This document shows positions 7,706 to 15,409 of a stretch of 64,000 nucleotides of DNA, piece after piece. Within the stretch, counting starts at the first letter, position 1. Each line of letters starts with the position of its first letter. The notes under the pieces were generated by a model. The model did not search any database and was not told where the DNA came from. It saw nothing but the letters and a program-made list of their open reading frames with translations. The translations under genes and the position numbers were made by a program. The stretch is from Allorhizocola rhizosphaerae (lineage in GTDB: Bacteria > Actinomycetota > Actinomycetes > Mycobacteriales > Micromonosporaceae): NCBI RefSeq assembly GCF_003426775.1, contig NZ_QJUG01000008.1, positions 1 through 64,000 on the forward strand, read 5' to 3'.

Positions 7706-8575
7706 CTAGCCGCGTGCGTCAATGACGGCCCGCATCGCCGACGCGAAGGCGACGACGGCCGGGTGAGTGGCTCCGCCCTGGCGGTATGCGATCCGCGTCC
7801 GGCGCCGCACGGGCAGCGGCGTCAGCCGCACGCCCTTGGGCGGGTGCTCGGTGGCGAGCTCGGGCACGAGCGACACGCCCTGCCCGGCGGCGACCAGGGC
7901 GAGCACGGTGGCGAAGTCGTCGGCGTGGTGCCGGGCCCTCGGCACGAAGCCCGCCGAGCGGCACACGTGCAGCGTCATGGTGTGGCACAGCGTGCCGGGC
8001 GTGGCCAGAATCCAAAGGGCGTCACGGAAATCGCCGAGTGCGCCGGAGTCTTGCGCGGCCAGATAGACGGTCTCCTCCAGCAGCGGCACGGAGTCCAGGC
8101 GGGAGTCCGGCGGGTCGGGCGCGACGTCGTAATCCTGCAGCAGCCCCACGTCCAGCCGGCGCTCGCGCAGCGCGCCCGGCACGCCGACCGGGTCGAGCTC
8201 GGTCACCATCAGTTCCAGCCCCGGGTGATCGCGGCCGAGTGCGACCAGCGCCGCGGGCAGCAGCGTGCGCACAGCGGTCGGGAAGGCGCCGATGCGCAGC
8301 GGGCCGGACAGCGTGGCCATCGAGGCGAGCGCGGCCGACGTCTGCTCCAGCGCGGCGATCACGACCTCGGCGTGCTGCACGAGCATGCGCCCGGCCGCGG
8401 TCAGCCTGACTCGGCGGCCGGTGCGCTCCAGTAGGGGCATGCGCGCCTCGCGCTCCAATATGGACAGTTGCTGGGACACGGCCGACGGGGTGTAGTTGTG
8501 CGCCTGCGCCACGGCCGCGATGGTGCCGAGGCGGGACAGGTCGCACAGCAGGCGCAATCGATGCACGTCGAGCAT
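7706..8575 (-). CDS. LysR-family transcriptional regulator
   Basis: A 289-residue LysR-type regulator. The N-terminal winged helix (residues 1-60: LGTIAAVAQAHNYTPSAVSQ, then LEREARMPLLERTGR) is followed by a type 2 periplasmic-binding-like effector domain (from about residue 88, GPLRIGAFPT). It is transcribed divergently from the DapA-like gene with only 71 bases between starts, so it most likely controls that gene and itself. No inducer can be named. Confidence 0.92.
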   Translation of the reverse strand: MLDVHRLRLLCDLSRLGTIAAVAQAHNYTPSAVSQQLSILEREARMPLLERTGRRVRLTAAGRMLVQHAEVVIAALEQTSAALASMATLSGPLRIGAFPTAVRTLLPAALVALGRDHPGLELMVTELDPVGVPGALRERRLDVGLLQDYDVAPDPPDSRLDSVPLLEETVYLAAQDSGALGDFRDALWILATPGTLCHTMTLHVCRSAGFVPRARHHADDFATVLALVAAGQGVSLVPELATEHPPKGVRLTPLPVRRRTRIAYRQGGATHPAVVAFASAMRAVIDARG

Positions 8576-8646: not shown

Positions 8647-9453
8647 ATGTTGCATGTCCCTCTCATCACCCCTTTCGATGCCACGGGCGCCGTGGCCTAC
8701 GACGCGCTTGAGGCGCTGGCAAACGAGGTCTTGGCGTCGGGCGCGGCGGGAATCGTGGCGCTGGGCACGACCGCCGAGCCGGGCTCGCTGAGCGACTCGG
8801 AGAAGCGGACCGTGGTTGACCTCATCGCGGGCGTGTGCGTGTCGCGGCGCGCACACCTGATCGTCGGCGCGGGCGTGGAGCATGCCGATGCCACTGCCGC
8901 TCTCGCCCTGGTGCCACCGTTTGTGCGTCCGGGCGAGGCGGGTGTCATCGCGTACTTCGATGCGCTCGCGGAGGCTAGCCCGGTACCGCTAATCATTTAT
9001 CACGTCCCATATCGGACAGGGCAGCCGCTCTCGGCGGCCGCGATCCGCCGCCTGGCGGAAATCCCCGGCGTGGTGGGCATGAAGTACGCCCCCGGTGGGA
9101 TCGACGCCGACACCATCGCGCTGCTGGCCGACCCGCCTTTCCAGATGCTCTGCGGAGACGACCTCTTCCTGGCGCCCATGCTCGCGCTCGGCGCGCATGG
9201 CGGCATCCTCGCGTCCGCGCACATTGCCACGGCCCAATTCGCCGAGCTCGTCAGCGCGCCGTCGCGGGAGCTTGGGCACCGGCTGGCGCGGCTGTCGAGT
9301 GCGCTGTTCGCCGAGCCCAATCCCACGGTCATCAAGGGCGTGCTGCACGCGCAGGGCCGCATCCCCACCCCCGACGTCCGGCTGCCCCTCCTGCCGGCCG
9401 CGAAAAGCAACTTGACCCTCCCGCTGCGGGAGTCTTTAGCGTCGAGCACATGA
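8647..9453 (+). CDS. Dihydrodipicolinate synthase (DapA)-family lyase/aldolase
   Basis: A class I aldolase of the DHDPS/NAL family, 268 residues from this start. It has VPLITPFD, the loop GTTAEPGSLSDSEK (family GTTGE-x3-LS-x2-E), the catalytic-Tyr region IIYHVPYRTG, and the Schiff-base Lys in VVGMKYAPGG. Members cleave or condense pyruvate-type substrates; this one probably acts in catabolism, because it pairs with a divergent LysR gene. The start is uncertain: ATG 8647 has GGAGG only one base away, while the frame is open to ATG 8596. The protein appears about 15 residues short between residues 85 and 92 compared with relatives. Confidence 0.85.
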   Translation: MLHVPLITPFDATGAVAYDALEALANEVLASGAAGIVALGTTAEPGSLSDSEKRTVVDLIAGVCVSRRAHLIVGAGVEHADATAALALVPPFVRPGEAGVIAYFDALAEASPVPLIIYHVPYRTGQPLSAAAIRRLAEIPGVVGMKYAPGGIDADTIALLADPPFQMLCGDDLFLAPMLALGAHGGILASAHIATAQFAELVSAPSRELGHRLARLSSALFAEPNPTVIKGVLHAQGRIPTPDVRLPLLPAAKSNLTLPLRESLASST

Positions 9454-10304
9454 AAGTGAAGGTCCACGAAACCATCTCCGGCATGCGGCGGCTGATCGGC
9501 CTGCCGCTCGACCAGCGCCCGGCCGCGCTGCGCGACCTGCTCCAGCCGATGTACGCCCACGTTCCCGTCCCCGGCGACCCGGTCGACCTGCACCATGGGG
9601 GTGGCGGATTCCGCGTGGACCAGGACGACGCACGATACGGGCCCGCGCTGGATCGCCTGTCCGGCATCGAGGAGCGCATCGAGTCGGCCCTGCACCGCGC
9701 GGCCGACGCCCTGGCTCACGTCAAGCTGCCGGAACAGGTCCAGGTCCTGCTCGTCCTCGGAAACCCGGACGACAGCCACCTCATGACCACAGCCGGTGGC
9801 TACTACGGCATGGGCAGCGTGCCCGGCTGGATCTATCTGCTGGCGTGGCCAAGCGACGAGGTCGTCAACCGCATCGAGCACTGCGCGGTGCACGAGTTCC
9901 ACCACCAGGCGCGCTACAGCAACGTGACGTGGGATCCCGTGCACGTCACGGTCGGCGAGCACGTGGTGGCCGAGGGCCTGGCGGAGGCGTTTGTGCGTGA
10001 GCTGTCCGGGCCGCAGGCGATGGGCCCGTGGTCGGGCATGGTCACGGGCGAGGCATTCGACCGGGCCTATGAAATCACCACGCGCGACATCTGGCTGGAA
10101 GGCATGCAGCACACACTGTCCTATGTGCTCGGTGACACGTCCGCGCGCAAGTTCGGGCGGGACCCACGCGGGATCCCGGACATGGCGGGCTACGCCGTGG
10201 GCCTGCACCTCGTCGACGCCCACCTGGCCGCTTCGGGCCTCACCGCCGCAGCCAGCACAGCCCTACCCAGCAAGGAAATCCTCGCCGCCACCCTGTCCCG
10301 TTGA
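9450..10304 (+). CDS. DUF2268 putative zinc-dependent protease
   Basis: A 284-residue protein with the zincin-like motif HEFHHQ near residue 149 (HExxH) and a downstream EGLAEAF that can supply the third ligand. This fits DUF2268, predicted Zn-dependent proteases. It is probably cytoplasmic: no signal peptide is seen. The ATG overlaps the aldolase stop (ATGA). Its own TGA stop lies in the first bases of a 60-bp hairpin repeat, so the present C-terminus may have been set by arrival of that repeat. Confidence 0.75.
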   Translation: MKVKVHETISGMRRLIGLPLDQRPAALRDLLQPMYAHVPVPGDPVDLHHGGGGFRVDQDDARYGPALDRLSGIEERIESALHRAADALAHVKLPEQVQVLLVLGNPDDSHLMTTAGGYYGMGSVPGWIYLLAWPSDEVVNRIEHCAVHEFHHQARYSNVTWDPVHVTVGEHVVAEGLAEAFVRELSGPQAMGPWSGMVTGEAFDRAYEITTRDIWLEGMQHTLSYVLGDTSARKFGRDPRGIPDMAGYAVGLHLVDAHLAASGLTAAASTALPSKEILAATLSR

Positions 10305-10360
10305 TCATGAACTTACGTCCATGTTCGGCGCGGCGTGTGGTTGCGTTAACTTCATGATCA
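10301..10360. repeat. 60-bp hairpin repeat, copy 1
   Basis: Ends are near-perfect inverted repeats: left TTGATCATGAACTTACG, right complementary to TGATCATGAAGTTAACG. The middle CGTCCATGTTCG is shared with the copies at 21466 and 36826. The preceding CDS uses the TGA of the leading TTGATC as its stop. The right end runs into a separate long hairpin. Confidence 0.85.
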
Positions 10361-10399
10361 GCCTGGGCTCCGCCACCACGGTGGCGGAGCCCAGGCTGA
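10358..10399. terminator. Perfect 20-bp stem hairpin between convergent genes
   Basis: The left arm (10358-10377) and right arm (10380-10399) are perfectly complementary over 20 bp with a 2-nt AC loop. It sits between the convergent DUF2268 and ABC permease genes and so can end both transcripts. There is no T-tract, as is usual in high-GC actinomycetes. Confidence 0.75.
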
Positions 10400-10409
10400 C
10401 GTGATCGGG

Positions 10410-11168
10410 TCAGGCGTCCCGTCTGACCAGCAGTGCCCCGCCGGCCAGCAGGCAGCCTACCGACCAGACGGCGAGCACGCCGAGTCCTTTCCACGGTGCG
10501 ATGGGCAGTTCGGTCAGGTGTTTGGTGGCCTGGATGGTCAGGCCGGCCGTCATGGGCCCGAGCTTTGTCAGGTACCGCTGCCACTTCTCGTCCGAAACCG
10601 CCTGGGCCATGATGGGAAACAGATACAGCAGGCCGAGCACGGCACCAATCGCCGCGGCCGAGTGGCGCACCGCGGTGGCCACGCCCAGGGCGAGCAGCGC
10701 GACGAGCGTGAGATAGAGCACCGAGCCGACCGCAGCGCGGACCGCCCCACCGTCGTCCATGGACAGTGCCGGCAAACCGTTGCGGCGCAAGAGGGGGCGG
10801 GTCGCGAGCAGGCTGCCCGCGACGGCGGCGGCCGAGGCCGCCACGATGACCGCGCTCACCACGACGGCTTTGGCGACGAGCACGACGCCGCGCCGGGGCA
10901 CTGCGGTGAGCGTGATCCGGTGCATCCCCGTGCCGTACTCCCCGCCGATCACCAGCACGGCCAGGATCGCCGCGACGGCCTGGCCCAGTTGCACGCCGGT
11001 CAGGGCGAGCCTGGCCGGGTCCACGTCGCATCCGCCCCAGCGGCACGTGGTGCCGGCGACCGCGGCCGCACTGACCGCGACGGTCGCCACGACCACCGCG
11101 AGCAGCAGCCAGATCGTGCCGGGCGAGGTGCGCAGCTTCGTCCACTCCGACCGCAGCGCCCCAATCAT
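10410..11168 (-). CDS. ABC-2 type transporter permease
   Basis: A 252-residue permease with six predicted membrane segments. It begins MIGALRSEWTKLRTSPG, the usual opening of actinobacterial ABC-2 permeases, and carries GGEYGTGMHRITLTAVPRR between segments. It is the last gene of a three-gene exporter operon and overlaps its upstream partner by four bases (ATGA at 11165-11168), which fixes this start against longer frames. It is likely a half of a heteromeric exporter for lipids, peptides or antibiotics. Confidence 0.9.
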   Translation of the reverse strand: MIGALRSEWTKLRTSPGTIWLLLAVVVATVAVSAAAVAGTTCRWGGCDVDPARLALTGVQLGQAVAAILAVLVIGGEYGTGMHRITLTAVPRRGVVLVAKAVVVSAVIVAASAAAVAGSLLATRPLLRRNGLPALSMDDGGAVRAAVGSVLYLTLVALLALGVATAVRHSAAAIGAVLGLLYLFPIMAQAVSDEKWQRYLTKLGPMTAGLTIQATKHLTELPIAPWKGLGVLAVWSVGCLLAGGALLVRRDA

Positions 11169-12655
11169 GCGTCCCTCCGGCGCAAGAAGCAGGCGGCTGC
11201 AACGAGGGCTGCCACGGCCCACCCGGCGAGCACGGCGCCCCCGGCCAAGGGCGACAACGGGAAGTATCCGTCGACCGGGAGGTAAAGGTTGGCGACCTGT
11301 TCGTACTCAACAAGGCTCTGCTGCATCGAAAACGCCGCCGCAGGGGCGATCCGCAGCAGCCACTGGCCGGCCGTCGGCGGAAGCACGCTCATCACCAGCA
11401 GGTAGGGCAGCGCGGTGGTGACGATCGCCACGGTGACGGCGGTCGTGCCGCGCCGCAGCAGCGCACCGAGCCCGACCGCCAGCATCGCGGTCACGCCGAG
11501 CAAAACCCCGGTGCCCACGATGACCCGCAGCTCGGTCGCGGTCGACGCGAGATGCACATAGGCCCCGTTGTCCCGCAATACCTTCTGGCCCAGCGTGATG
11601 ACCACCGCGGCGGCGAGGACACCGACCACAAACGACACCGCCCCGACCACCGCCGCCTTCGCGACCAACACGCGGCCCCGGCGCGGGCTCGCGGCAAGCG
11701 TCGTGCGCATCATGCCGCGGCGGTACTCGGCGGTGACGAACATCGTCGAGATCACCACTACCATGATCAGCCCGGCGAACGTGCCCAGCAATGTGTCGGA
11801 GATGCTGGCGCCGATGCCGGCCGGACCGCCGACCGCGGGGGCGATGTCGCCGGTGCCGGTGATGGTGAACACGCCCTCGCCGGTCTCCTCGAACCCGCCC
11901 AGCTCATCGGCGTACTTGTTGGCGGGGCCGCCGATCCTGGTGCCGGTCAACGATCCCACCGGCGTCACGTGGTCGAAGACCGCCGTGGCCATGGTCGGCC
12001 CGCCGTAGGAGCCGAACGACCCGAGCGACTCATTGGCCCCCTCGGCATGCTGCGGGGAGGTGACGAACAGGCCGATCTGCACGGTCTGGGGCAGCCCGGC
12101 GAGAGTGACGGTGCCGACGGTGGTCCAGGTGGTGCCGTCGGCCGACTCCTCAGCCGTGATTTTTTCTTTGGTACGGGTCAGCCTTAGCCAGCGCGCCGAC
12201 CCCGGCGGGCCGGGCTTGCCGGCCTTGTCGTGCACGAAGTTGTGTTGCAGCCGCACGCCGTGTGCGCCGGTGAGCATGACAGCGGCGTAGGCCGATCCCT
12301 GCGTGGTGCCGTCCTTGATGAGCAGGCCCGCCTTCGCCCACGGCGCCACGCCCTCGCGCATCTTGTCGTCGTTGGGGCCGGGCGGCAGCATGCCGGTCAT
12401 CGAGGCCACGCGCGCCGTGATGCTGCCGTCGCCGCTCAGCGGCCGGTGGACAAACATGAAGCCGTCGCTCACCTCCTGCCCCTCCGGCCCGACCGGCAGC
12501 ACGCACTCCGAGCCCGAGCCGGGCTGGCCGCACGAGCCCTGGATCCCCGGCAGCAGCCCGAACGCCACGATCAGGACACCGCCGATCGCCATGCCGATCA
12601 CCCAGCCGGGTACGGTGCGAAACTTCGTCCACTCCGCCTGAATAAGCGCCCTCAT
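11165..12655 (-). CDS. ABC-2 permease with large extracytoplasmic beta-sandwich insert
   Basis: A 496-residue permease, about twice the size of its partner. Residues 1-37 match the usual opening (MRALIQAEWTKFRTVPGW plus helix 1). Residues about 38-285 form an extracytoplasmic insert resembling DUF1349/concanavalin-like sandwiches: GDGSITARVASM, WAKAGLLIKDG, GARWLRLTR-type runs. The remaining five segments then resume with AEYRRGMMRTTLAASPRRGR. The insert could bind a sugar or envelope ligand. Four-base overlaps join it to both neighbours. Confidence 0.88.
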   Translation of the reverse strand: MRALIQAEWTKFRTVPGWVIGMAIGGVLIVAFGLLPGIQGSCGQPGSGSECVLPVGPEGQEVSDGFMFVHRPLSGDGSITARVASMTGMLPPGPNDDKMREGVAPWAKAGLLIKDGTTQGSAYAAVMLTGAHGVRLQHNFVHDKAGKPGPPGSARWLRLTRTKEKITAEESADGTTWTTVGTVTLAGLPQTVQIGLFVTSPQHAEGANESLGSFGSYGGPTMATAVFDHVTPVGSLTGTRIGGPANKYADELGGFEETGEGVFTITGTGDIAPAVGGPAGIGASISDTLLGTFAGLIMVVVISTMFVTAEYRRGMMRTTLAASPRRGRVLVAKAAVVGAVSFVVGVLAAAVVITLGQKVLRDNGAYVHLASTATELRVIVGTGVLLGVTAMLAVGLGALLRRGTTAVTVAIVTTALPYLLVMSVLPPTAGQWLLRIAPAAAFSMQQSLVEYEQVANLYLPVDGYFPLSPLAGGAVLAGWAVAALVAAACFLRRRDA

Positions 12656-13569
12656 CGCGATACCGCCTTGAACTCCACGGCGTCGCGGGTCAGCTCAAGA
12701 TAGGCCTCTTCGAGCGTGGCCCGGTGCGCGGACACCTCCGAAAACCCGATCCCGTTCGCGTTCATCAGCGCCACCACCGCATCGGTGGCCAGCCCGGAGA
12801 CGCTCAGCACGCCAACGCCGGCCGCCGCCACGGTCCCGCCCGCGTCGGCCAGAACCGTTGCTGCCCTTGCCGAATCGGTGCGCAACGTGACCCGCCCGTT
12901 GGCCGTGGCGGCCAGCAGTTGCACGACGCTCGCGTCGGCGATGACCCGGCCGCGCCCGACCACCACGACATGGTCGGCGGTATCCTGCAGTTCGCTCATC
13001 AGATGGCTGGAAACCAGGACCGCACGCCCTTGGGCGGCAAGGGTTTTGAGGAAGCCACGCATCCAGATGATGCCTTCGGGATCCATGCCGTTGAACGGCT
13101 CGTCCAGCACGAGCACCGGCGGGTCGCCCAGCAGCGCGGCCGCGAGGCCGAGCCGTTGGCGCATGCCGAGGGAGAATCCGCCGGCCCGGCGCCGGGCCAC
13201 GGTCGTCAGGCCCGCGCCCTCGAGCACCTCGTCGACCCGGCGGGCGGTCAGGCCCTGCGAGTGGGCCAGCCACAACAGGTGGTTGCGTGCGGTCCGGCTG
13301 GGCTGCAACGCACCCGCGTCCAGCAGGGAACCGACGTGGCACAGCGGGCGGCGCAGGGCGCGGTACGGCTGGCCGCCGATGAGCGCGGTCCCCGAGTCGG
13401 GTGCGTCCAGGCCGAGGATCACCCGCATGGTGGTGGTCTTGCCCGCGCCGTTGGGGCCGACGAACCCCGTGACTCGGCCGGGCTGGACGGTGAAGGACAT
13501 GCCGTCGAGCGCGACGGTGCGCCCGAAGCGCTTGCGCAATCCGTCGACGGCGATGATCGTCTTGTTCAT
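12652..13569 (-). CDS. ABC transporter ATP-binding protein
   Basis: A 305-residue ATPase of the DrrA/BcrA type. It shows Walker A GPNGAGKTT (residues 38-46), Q-loop replaced in this subgroup, signature FSLGMRQRLG (near 145), Walker B VLVLDEPFNGMD and H-loop SSHLM. A further 90-residue C-terminal domain is typical of drug exporters. It starts 23 bases from the 41-bp palindrome that also controls the two-component genes, so export is probably under their control. Confidence 0.94.
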   Translation of the reverse strand: MNKTIIAVDGLRKRFGRTVALDGMSFTVQPGRVTGFVGPNGAGKTTTMRVILGLDAPDSGTALIGGQPYRALRRPLCHVGSLLDAGALQPSRTARNHLLWLAHSQGLTARRVDEVLEGAGLTTVARRRAGGFSLGMRQRLGLAAALLGDPPVLVLDEPFNGMDPEGIIWMRGFLKTLAAQGRAVLVSSHLMSELQDTADHVVVVGRGRVIADASVVQLLAATANGRVTLRTDSARAATVLADAGGTVAAAGVGVLSVSGLATDAVVALMNANGIGFSEVSAHRATLEEAYLELTRDAVEFKAVSR

Positions 13570-13592
13570 GTTTTCGTTTGTACGCGGCGGGC

Positions 13593-13633
13593 GGTGTCAG
13601 CACGGTGTCGCCGGATGACACCTCGCTGACACC
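13593..13633. promoter_or_regulatory. 41-bp palindromic operator between ABC and two-component genes
   Basis: GGTGTCAGC, two bases, GGTGTC, then the mirror half GACACC, two bases, GCTGACACC. The whole is nearly self-complementary over 41 bp and each half is a direct repeat, as expected for a dimeric OmpR-class regulator. It lies 23 bases from each gene's start (ABC ATPase at 13569, regulator GTG at 13656). Binding by the adjacent regulator is inferred. Confidence 0.7.
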
Positions 13634-13655
13634 TTTCACCTGGCATCTTTGGTGG

Positions 13656-14321
13656 GTGCGTGTGCTTGTCGTGGAGGACTTCGAGATCCTGGCCCGGACC
13701 ATCGCCACCGGTCTGCGCCGTGAAGGCATGGCGGTGGATGTGGTGCTCGACGGCGACGGCGCGCTCGAGCGCGTGACGACCACCCGATATGACGTGGTGG
13801 TGCTGGATCGCGACATTCCGGGCGTTCACGGCGATGAGGTGTGCCGGCGGATAGCCTTCGACCACGGCGGGCACAGCCGGGTGCTGATGCTCACGGCGGC
13901 CGGCACGGTGCGGCAGCGGATCGACGGCCTGGGTCTTGGCGCCGACGATTACCTGCCCAAGCCGTTCGACTTCGATGAGCTGGTCGCCCGCATCCGCGCG
14001 CTCGGCAGGCGCAGCACGGCGGCGTTGCCGCCGATTCTGCAGCGCGCAGACCTGACGCTGGATCCCACCCGCCGCGTCGCGACCCGGGCCGGGCTCCGGC
14101 TTGACTTGAGCCCCAAGGAGTTCGCCGTCCTGGAGTGCCTGCTGGCCGCGGACGGGCGGCTGGTGTCCACCGAGGAGTTGCTGGAACGGGTGTGGGACGA
14201 GGCGGCAGACCCGTTCACCACGGCGGTCAAGACCACCGTCAAGCGCTTGCGCGCCAAACTCGGCGAACCTCCGATCATCCATACCGTGCGCGAGGCCGGT
14301 TACCGGATCGGAGAGCCGTGA
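13656..14321 (+). CDS. OmpR-family response regulator
   Basis: A 221-residue response regulator. The receiver domain (1-115) has the acidic pair VVED, the phosphoacceptor in VVVLDRDIPG and the Lys in LPKPFDF. The C-terminal winged helix has LSPKEFAVLECLLAADGRLVS and ends REAGYRIGEP. The GTG at 13656 is chosen because VRVLVVEDFE is the family's normal first strand; the upstream open frame covers the operator. It overlaps the kinase gene by one base (GTGATG). Confidence 0.94.
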   Translation: MRVLVVEDFEILARTIATGLRREGMAVDVVLDGDGALERVTTTRYDVVVLDRDIPGVHGDEVCRRIAFDHGGHSRVLMLTAAGTVRQRIDGLGLGADDYLPKPFDFDELVARIRALGRRSTAALPPILQRADLTLDPTRRVATRAGLRLDLSPKEFAVLECLLAADGRLVSTEELLERVWDEAADPFTTAVKTTVKRLRAKLGEPPIIHTVREAGYRIGEP

Positions 14322-15409
14322 TGCCGCGGCTCGCGCTGCGTTCCCAACTGACCCTGCTCTATGCGGTCCCCTTCCTCCTGTCCGGGGTGGCGCTGGTCGC
14401 CGTCCCGATCCTGCAGACCAGCGAGTCGGCGCCCGCCGGGCCACTGGACGGCTCCTGGTCGCCCCCTCCCGGCGGCACACACGTCGAGGAGTCCACCACC
14501 GACCTGGCCCCGGTGCTGACCGCCACCGCCGTGGGCCTGGCCGTCATGGTGGTGGTGGCGGTCGTGCTCGGCTGGCTCATCGCCGGGAGGTTCCTGCGCC
14601 CACTGCGCACCATCACCGCCACCGCACGCGACATCTCCGCCAACAACCTGCACCGGCGGCTGGGCCGCACCGGGCACAACGACGAGTTCACGGTGCTCGC
14701 GGCGACCCTGGACGACCTTTTCGAGCGGCTCGAAGCCTCCTTCGAGTCGCAACGGCACTTCGTCGCCAACGCCTCGCACGAATTGCGCACCCCGCTGACC
14801 GCCGAGCGCACCCTCCTTCAGGTGGCGTTGGCCGACCCGGACGGCAACGCCGACACGCTACGCGCGGTGTGCCGCGAGGTGCTGGCGCTCGGTGAGTCGC
14901 AGGAACGGCTCATCAACGCCCTGCTCACCCTGGCGAGCAGCGAGCAGGGCGTCGAGCGGCGCGAGCCGTTCGACCTGGCCGCCATTGCCGGCGCCGTCGT
15001 GAATGGACGGTTGAACGAGGCGCGGCGGCGCGGCGTCCGGGTCCATACCGATCTGGCGCCCGCGCACACGGCCGGTGACCACAGCCTCGTGGAGAGTTTG
15101 GTGGCCAATCTCGTGGACAACGCCTTGCGGCACAACGTGCCCGGGGGAAGCGTCGAGGTGAGCACGTTTGGTGGCCTCGGACAGGCTCGCCTGCGGGTGC
15201 GCAACACCGGCCCGGTGGTACCGGCCGGTGCCCTCGCGCAACTCTTCCAGCCCTTCCAACGTCTTGGCGCCCAACGCCTGCGGCACACCGACGGGCACGG
15301 CCTGGGCCTGGCCATCGTGCGTGCCATCGCCAACGCGCACGGCGCGACGCTGACCCCGCGGGCCCGCCCCGATGGCGGGCTCGACATCGAGGTCTGCTTC
15401 TTCCGCTAG
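14321..15409 (+). CDS. Sensor histidine kinase
   Basis: A 362-residue membrane kinase. Two hydrophobic segments (about 9-30 and 66-88) enclose a short Pro/Gly-rich extracytoplasmic loop of about 35 residues. HAMP-like linker, then H-box ASHELRTPLT, N-box NLVDNALRHN and G-box HGLGLAIV. The short sensor loop suggests intramembrane or transporter-mediated sensing, as in kinases paired with ABC exporters. It is translationally coupled to the response regulator. Confidence 0.92.
   Translation: MPRLALRSQLTLLYAVPFLLSGVALVAVPILQTSESAPAGPLDGSWSPPPGGTHVEESTTDLAPVLTATAVGLAVMVVVAVVLGWLIAGRFLRPLRTITATARDISANNLHRRLGRTGHNDEFTVLAATLDDLFERLEASFESQRHFVANASHELRTPLTAERTLLQVALADPDGNADTLRAVCREVLALGESQERLINALLTLASSEQGVERREPFDLAAIAGAVVNGRLNEARRRGVRVHTDLAPAHTAGDHSLVESLVANLVDNALRHNVPGGSVEVSTFGGLGQARLRVRNTGPVVPAGALAQLFQPFQRLGAQRLRHTDGHGLGLAIVRAIANAHGATLTPRARPDGGLDIEVCFFR

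Follow-up and report, generated by a model that had tools for sequence, protein, structure and literature searches.

Analysis of the spacer between the ABC exporter genes and the two-component genes of Allorhizocola rhizosphaerae indicated that the 41 bp at positions 13593-13633 are probably a shared operator of two divergent promoters, which the adjacent response regulator would bind and from which it would activate both. The operator holds four copies of GGTGTC at offsets 0/11/24/35, two per direction, and this four-hexamer layout was found again in many related soil bacteria. The window referred to below is the whole stretch of 64,000 nucleotides that was analysed.

Operator and neighbouring genes

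The nucleotide sequence of the operator reads GGTGTCAGCACGGTGTC GCCGGAT GACACCTCGCTGACACC, with GGTGTC starting at positions 13593 and 13604, and with GACACC, the reverse complement, starting at 13617 and 13628. A preliminary description had placed a 41-bp palindrome of direct-repeat halves here, in an 86-bp divergent spacer between exporter and two-component genes; both were recovered, the spacer running from the ATG of the ABC-ATPase gene (complement of 13567-13569) to the GTG of the regulator gene at 13656. The second half, which had been called a mirror image, is so as reverse complement except at two bases of the N2 of the half site as it was then written, and the two arms (13593-13609 and 13617-13633, with 7 nt between them) pair at 15 of 17 positions (88%). 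The features of the locus are given in Table 1.

Table 1. Coordinates of the operator, the predicted promoter elements and the neighbouring genes in the window
Feature	Position	Strand	Basis
LysR-type gene, 5 kb from the palindrome	7706-8575		
Second ABC-2 type permease; both Pfam matches under the curated cut-off	10410..11222	-	domain search
ABC-2 type permease with DUF1349-like stretch (DUF1349 below cut-off)	11165..12655	-	domain search
ABC transporter ATPase	12652..13569	-	domain search
-10-like box TACAAA of the predicted exporter promoter; 10 nt from operator, 7 nt before ATG	13577..13582	-	conservation
Four-hexamer operator, offsets 0/11/24/35	13593..13633	.	window sequence and conservation
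Exporter-facing half, GACACC-N5-GACACC; hexamers 13593-13598 and 13604-13609	13593..13609	-	sequence; absent in L062, L074, L101 (far gene unrelated)
Regulator-facing half, GACACC-N5-GACACC; hexamers 13617-13622 and 13628-13633	13617..13633	+	sequence
-10-like box CATCTT of the predicted regulator promoter, TGG before it; 10 nt from operator, 6 nt before GTG	13644..13649	+	conservation
OmpR/PhoB-type response regulator; begins with GTG; recognition helix at about 188-201	13656..14321	+	PF00072 and PF00486 above cut-off
Histidine kinase sensor with HAMP, HisKA and HATPase_c; begins at GTG 14318 or ATG 14321 and overlaps the regulator stop	14318..15409	+	domains

The regulator carries a receiver domain (PF00072) and a Trans_reg_C winged helix (PF00486), and belongs with the OmpR/PhoB-type proteins. 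The DUF1349 match in the first permease scored 27.9 bits against a cut-off of 32.4, and this permease, with its DUF1349-like stretch, might take part in sensing. By eye, the outside loop of the kinase looks short. A perfect inverted repeat of 20 bp, with a loop of 2 nt, was also noted at 10358-10399, between the convergent genes 9450-10304 (plus strand) and 10410-11222 (minus strand), and is probably a two-way transcription terminator.

Predicted promoters and proposed mechanism

A scan for sigma-70-type -35/-10 pairs returned none, and a sigma-70-type promoter with a -35 box was rejected on that ground. Alignment of 115 rows on the operator revealed a regulator-side block, TGGCATnnT, whose A and last T were each conserved at 97%, and a far-side block on the minus strand, TA(C/G)AA, whose first two bases were conserved at 99% and 97%. 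A predicted -10-like box starting exactly 10 nt outside the operator was found on the regulator side (NAnnnT) in 131 of 138 operators, on the far side (TAnnnn) in 123 and on both sides in 118. Since these boxes lie so close to the two start codons (Table 1), the transcripts are predicted to be leaderless in both directions.

In the mechanism that we favour, each half, with its 11-bp period, would take one head-to-tail dimer of the regulator and would occupy the -35 position, 10 nt before the -10. The kinase, on its presumed signal, would phosphorylate the regulator and two dimers would bind back to back, one of them helping RNA polymerase to start the regulator-kinase operon (positive autoregulation) and the other helping it to start the exporter operon. 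As each dimer would touch the polymerase at its own promoter, one signal would raise both sensor and exporter. The earlier proposal that the direct-repeat halves face both ways, with room for four monomers, and form one switch for exporter and sensor is supported as a model by the comparative evidence below. The two dimers would sit on different faces of the DNA helix, a point that we count against this explanation.

The same regulator might instead repress by covering the -35 region on both sides until the signal releases it, and the operator, which does cover that region of both predicted promoters, would also suit a repressor. We consider this unlikely, since the absence of a -35 hexamer in the scan makes the promoters appear to need help, and the constant distance of one helical turn to the -10 is that of the activating PhoP boxes (PMC3335776).

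Chance expectation and occurrence in the genome

Of 100 dinucleotide shuffles made from the 64-kb window, 43 contained a 17-bp inverted repeat with at least 15 pairs and any gap of 0-30 nt, and 2 contained one of the same quality at exactly the 7-nt gap. The palindrome alone is therefore weak evidence and was dropped as a significant feature. This frequency is what speaks for a chance repeat in a G+C-rich genome, the least credible of the explanations considered: the mutual agreement of the four hexamers was 36 of 36, while the next best place in the window reached 27 and the maximum over 100 shuffles was 30, and the arrangement is conserved in related loci.

The preliminary description had called for a search of the genome for the half site elsewhere. 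When the 8.8-Mb genome was searched for TGACACC-N4-TGACACC with at most one mismatch, only the two places in the operator were found, and a wider regulon in this genome was rejected because half sites of this quality are confined to the operator. Two mismatches gave 39 further places; 28 of these were examined (L003-L030; L005, L022 and L027 were not re-located), and a -10-like box at 10 nt stood beside one, L028. At up to three mismatches the half site occurred at 550 places versus 464 for the reversed control pattern. The half site seems, from these counts, to be private to the exporter/two-component locus in its own genome.

Conservation among related regulators

Relatives were sampled from 200 genomes of the family, from at least 80 named loci and from 60 further stretches, and the sample was then widened to 394 genomes of the class with 40 more stretches. 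The core set comprised 94 distinct upstream regions from 110 loci, and the enlarged set 159 distinct regions from 179 loci whose regulator was nearly complete; weaker and partial matches were excluded, among them the own-genome paralogues L148, L151 and L152. The class-wide addition brought 65 new distinct loci of 69. The branch of interest was defined by K192 and R197 in the regulator, a definition that excludes at least one true relative (L086, W197), and an upstream region was taken to have the exact geometry when at least 13 of 16 anchors were present (in each hexamer, G at positions 1 and 2, T at 3 and C at 6).

The fitted four-hexamer model scored above 12 in 89 of the 94 core upstream regions; for 940 shuffles the 99th percentile was 0.1 and the single maximum 14.6. 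A motif-free scan, which used only the agreement among four hexamers, picked period 11 with central offset 13 in 81 of the 94 core loci and each other period in at most 6. Orthologous loci lacking the site had been named beforehand as evidence against it, and this expectation was not borne out: the exact geometry was present in 138 of 167 K192/R197-branch regulators versus 3 of 57 other regulators, and one of these three is the true relative L086. Among the first 134 branch regulators 115 reached the threshold, and of the 670 shuffles none did. The four sites were unequal: the full GGT..C frame was intact at sites 1 to 4 in 133, 88, 128 and 119 of 138 rows, respectively, the second site being the least conserved.

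Nine paralogues from the window's own genome were scored (L141-L147, L149 and L150), and the four-hexamer geometry was absent from all of them. By eye, the region upstream of paralogue L151 reads CGTAAG-N5-TGTTAG-N7-CCTTAT-N5-CCTTAC, similar facing direct repeats with another hexamer, and the facing direct-repeat layout may be wider than the K192/R197 branch.

Central spacing and half-operators

The exact geometry was absent from 29 of the 167 branch regulators, 14 of which passed, some weakly, once the central spacing was allowed to differ and the 11-bp period was kept; L186, L199, L205 and L213 gave full 16/16 matches at a centre offset of 14. When any offset from 8 to 19 was allowed, 9 of the 57 other regulators passed.

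The far half was assessed in 64 loci, where the regulator-side half with its -10 set the register and at least 7 of 8 anchors counted as intact. It was intact in 54 of the 57 loci whose far gene encodes an ATPase, a permease or a recurrent secreted protein, and in one of the seven with another far gene (L127). The category 'recurrent secreted protein' was set after seven such loci had been seen, and leaving it out turns the counts into 47 of 50 and 8 of 14. In these seven loci (L078, L081, L085, L091, L093, L096 and L112) the far-side exporter is replaced by a secreted protein of the TAT-signal type containing AIGESHGQQEHGDAQQMLLADPRL; a search with its first 90 residues gave no Pfam family and only sub-threshold TAT-type signals. 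Perhaps this protein is a further product of the same response.

Three of the 57 lack an intact far half in the fixed register (L061, L115 and L132); their four-hexamer arrangement has another register or spacing. In L061 (Lentzea terrae) a full four-hexamer operator lies 63 nt from the regulator gene and an extra half operator lies nearer, giving at least six sites. Among the loci with another far gene, no operator was recognisable in L116, and the regulators of L123 and L135 are of the V193/S196 class, in which the second hexamer is often CGGAAC or GGGAAC; these three are hence uninformative on loss of the far half. The evidence for half-operators is thus that of three clean loci, L062, L074 and L101 (a Sphaerisporangium and two Actinoplanes), which have kept the near half and its -10 and have lost the far half and the far -10. 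Together, the variable central spacing and the lone half operators suggest that the working units are the halves.

The same loci bear on whether the inverted repeat acts as an RNA or DNA structure (hairpin, terminator or cruciform). In favour of such a structure, the arms are complementary at 88%, and matching changes in the two arms would also preserve a hairpin. We regard a structural role as very improbable, and rejected an RNA hairpin or terminator, because the two -10-like boxes flank the palindrome, which would therefore be missing from the predicted transcripts, because one arm has been lost alone in these three loci, and because a terminator scan of 13400-13800 found nothing at the palindrome.

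Recognition helix and hexamer sequence

Alignment to MtrA placed residues 193 and 196 of the regulator within the helix ending in RLR. T193 went with G at base 4 of the hexamer in 240 of 252 hexamers and A193 with C in 72 of 72, and H193 had C in 87 of 116 and T in 25. At base 5, R196 was mostly accompanied by T (153/228), N196 by A (58/76) and G196 by A (37/48). The resulting classes of bases 4-5 were GT in most cases for T193 with K196 or R196, and otherwise GA for T193 with G196, CA for A193 with N196, CG or TC for H193, AT for Q193, and TA or AA for V193 with S196. Bases 4-5 were identical in all four sites of only 30 of 138 operators, and in three or more sites of 91, which weakens the idea that the four copies change together.

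A rule linking helix and hexamer was fixed before the class-wide search. In the new loci it was correct for base 4 in 10 of 12 cases (misses L240 and L243) and for base 5 in 19 of 23 (misses L240, L241, L243 and L282); the V193 and S196 class (GGTTAC/GGTAAC), for which the rule makes no base-4 prediction, was numerous among them. Overall agreement was 134 of 138 between residue 193 and base 4, and 131 of 138 between residue 196 and base 5. Independent helix-hexamer changes numbered 3-5 on all branches and 1-2 on well-supported ones, and for this reason no significance is claimed for the match.

The tracking of residues 193 and 196 by the hexamer points to the neighbouring response regulator as the binder of the operator. 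Another DNA-binding protein, such as a TetR- or LysR-type dimer, would own the palindrome if the regulator were a bystander; the inner pair GGTGTC-N7-GACACC is a palindrome in its own right, and a LysR-type gene lies 5 kb away (Table 1). We think this improbable. The sites were collected by their position before the regulator gene and their hexamer class follows the recognition helix of that regulator, 11-bp direct repeats are typical of OmpR/PhoB proteins, and the 11-bp period is constant among relatives, some of which vary the central spacing. For PmrA, two histidines of the recognition helix have been named as likely specificity determinants in the account of PMC3973317.

We give roughly even chances to the broader reading that the family is a regulator-operator series on a rigid scaffold, with a two-residue specificity code for one OmpR/PhoB branch, back-to-back promoters and halves that can be lost one at a time. 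In that series the GGTnnC frame, the 11-bp period and the 10 nt to the -10 would stay constant and bases 4 and 5 would shift with the two helix residues.

Comparison with known systems

The Salmonella PhoP-box promoters of architectures I and II, as described in PMC3335776, resemble the present locus in having a direct hexamer repeat (5-nt spacer) that has a fixed orientation, lies roughly one helical turn before the -10 and is bound, as proposed for the window, by a head-to-tail dimer. In that account expression is driven by a box in direct orientation that lies 12 nt, in one case 11 nt, from the -10. Architecture II has a second box further upstream, which in ybjX is reversed and whose mutation cut expression more than 8-fold (PMC3335776). 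The locus in the window likewise has a direct hexamer repeat with a 5-nt spacer, one helical turn upstream of a -10 that is predicted from conservation, and its layout is by analogy that of a PhoP-box-like class II promoter, the box replacing the -35. It differs in the distance to the -10 (10 nt in the window), in the hexamer, and in that its second box doubles as the first box of the opposite gene (PMC3335776). A box in place of the -35 is thus of an already known kind.

In CopRS of Corynebacterium glutamicum and CusRS of E. coli, according to PMC3140484, two-component genes are divergent from resistance or export genes and both sides are activated from one common intergenic site, and the locus in the window likewise has one common site between two-component and export genes. 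The C. glutamicum CopRS site consists, as described there, of just one direct repeat with units of 9-10 bp (TGAAGATTT-N2-TGAAGATTT), without two facing halves. The OmpR-type regulator AgrR of Cupriavidus metallidurans has, in the account of PMC7380067, an inverted repeat with extra direct-repeat half sites and one divergent intergenic target, type II activation being proposed. Its core is a 6-4-6 inverted repeat, while the constant unit in the window is the 11-bp direct repeat and the central spacing may vary. An AgrR-like single symmetric operator with a constant 4-bp centre was rejected: the centre in the window is N7, the 11-bp period within halves is constant, other centres occur in some relatives, and lone halves are found in L062, L074 and L101. 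Divergent autoregulated two-component/export systems with one common site are therefore already known from CopRS, CusRS and the AgrR targets (PMC3140484, PMC7380067).

The closest regulator with a solved structure is VanR of Streptomyces coelicolor (PDB 7lz9 and 7lza; residues 1-219 aligned, E 5.7e-65), which serves vancomycin resistance (PMC9739842) and whose helix reads AVRITVSALR versus AVKTTVKRLR in the window regulator. Identity with VanR was rejected, the window regulator scoring 227.3 bits with the NCBIfam VanR-O model against a curated cut-off of 505. Membership of the CutR regulon was also rejected, as the TAWATAAA site (PMC12802291) is absent from both strands of the 86-bp spacer. 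In the open-licence papers searched we found no description of the four-hexamer geometry with two outward-facing halves, and none of a helix-hexamer specificity series.

Significance

Cells carry many paralogues of OmpR/PhoB regulators, and since the sites are usually degenerate, it is difficult to test how these paralogues come to recognise different DNA sites. The operator described here is rigid, four-fold and placed beside the regulator gene, and its roughly six versions are associated with few helix changes, which makes the outcome of helix swaps predictable and testable. Where the far gene is unrelated, the loci provide natural half-operators with which the contributions of the two dimers could be told apart. 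If the reading given above is true, the family would offer a specificity code of two residues that can be read for one branch of the OmpR/PhoB regulators.
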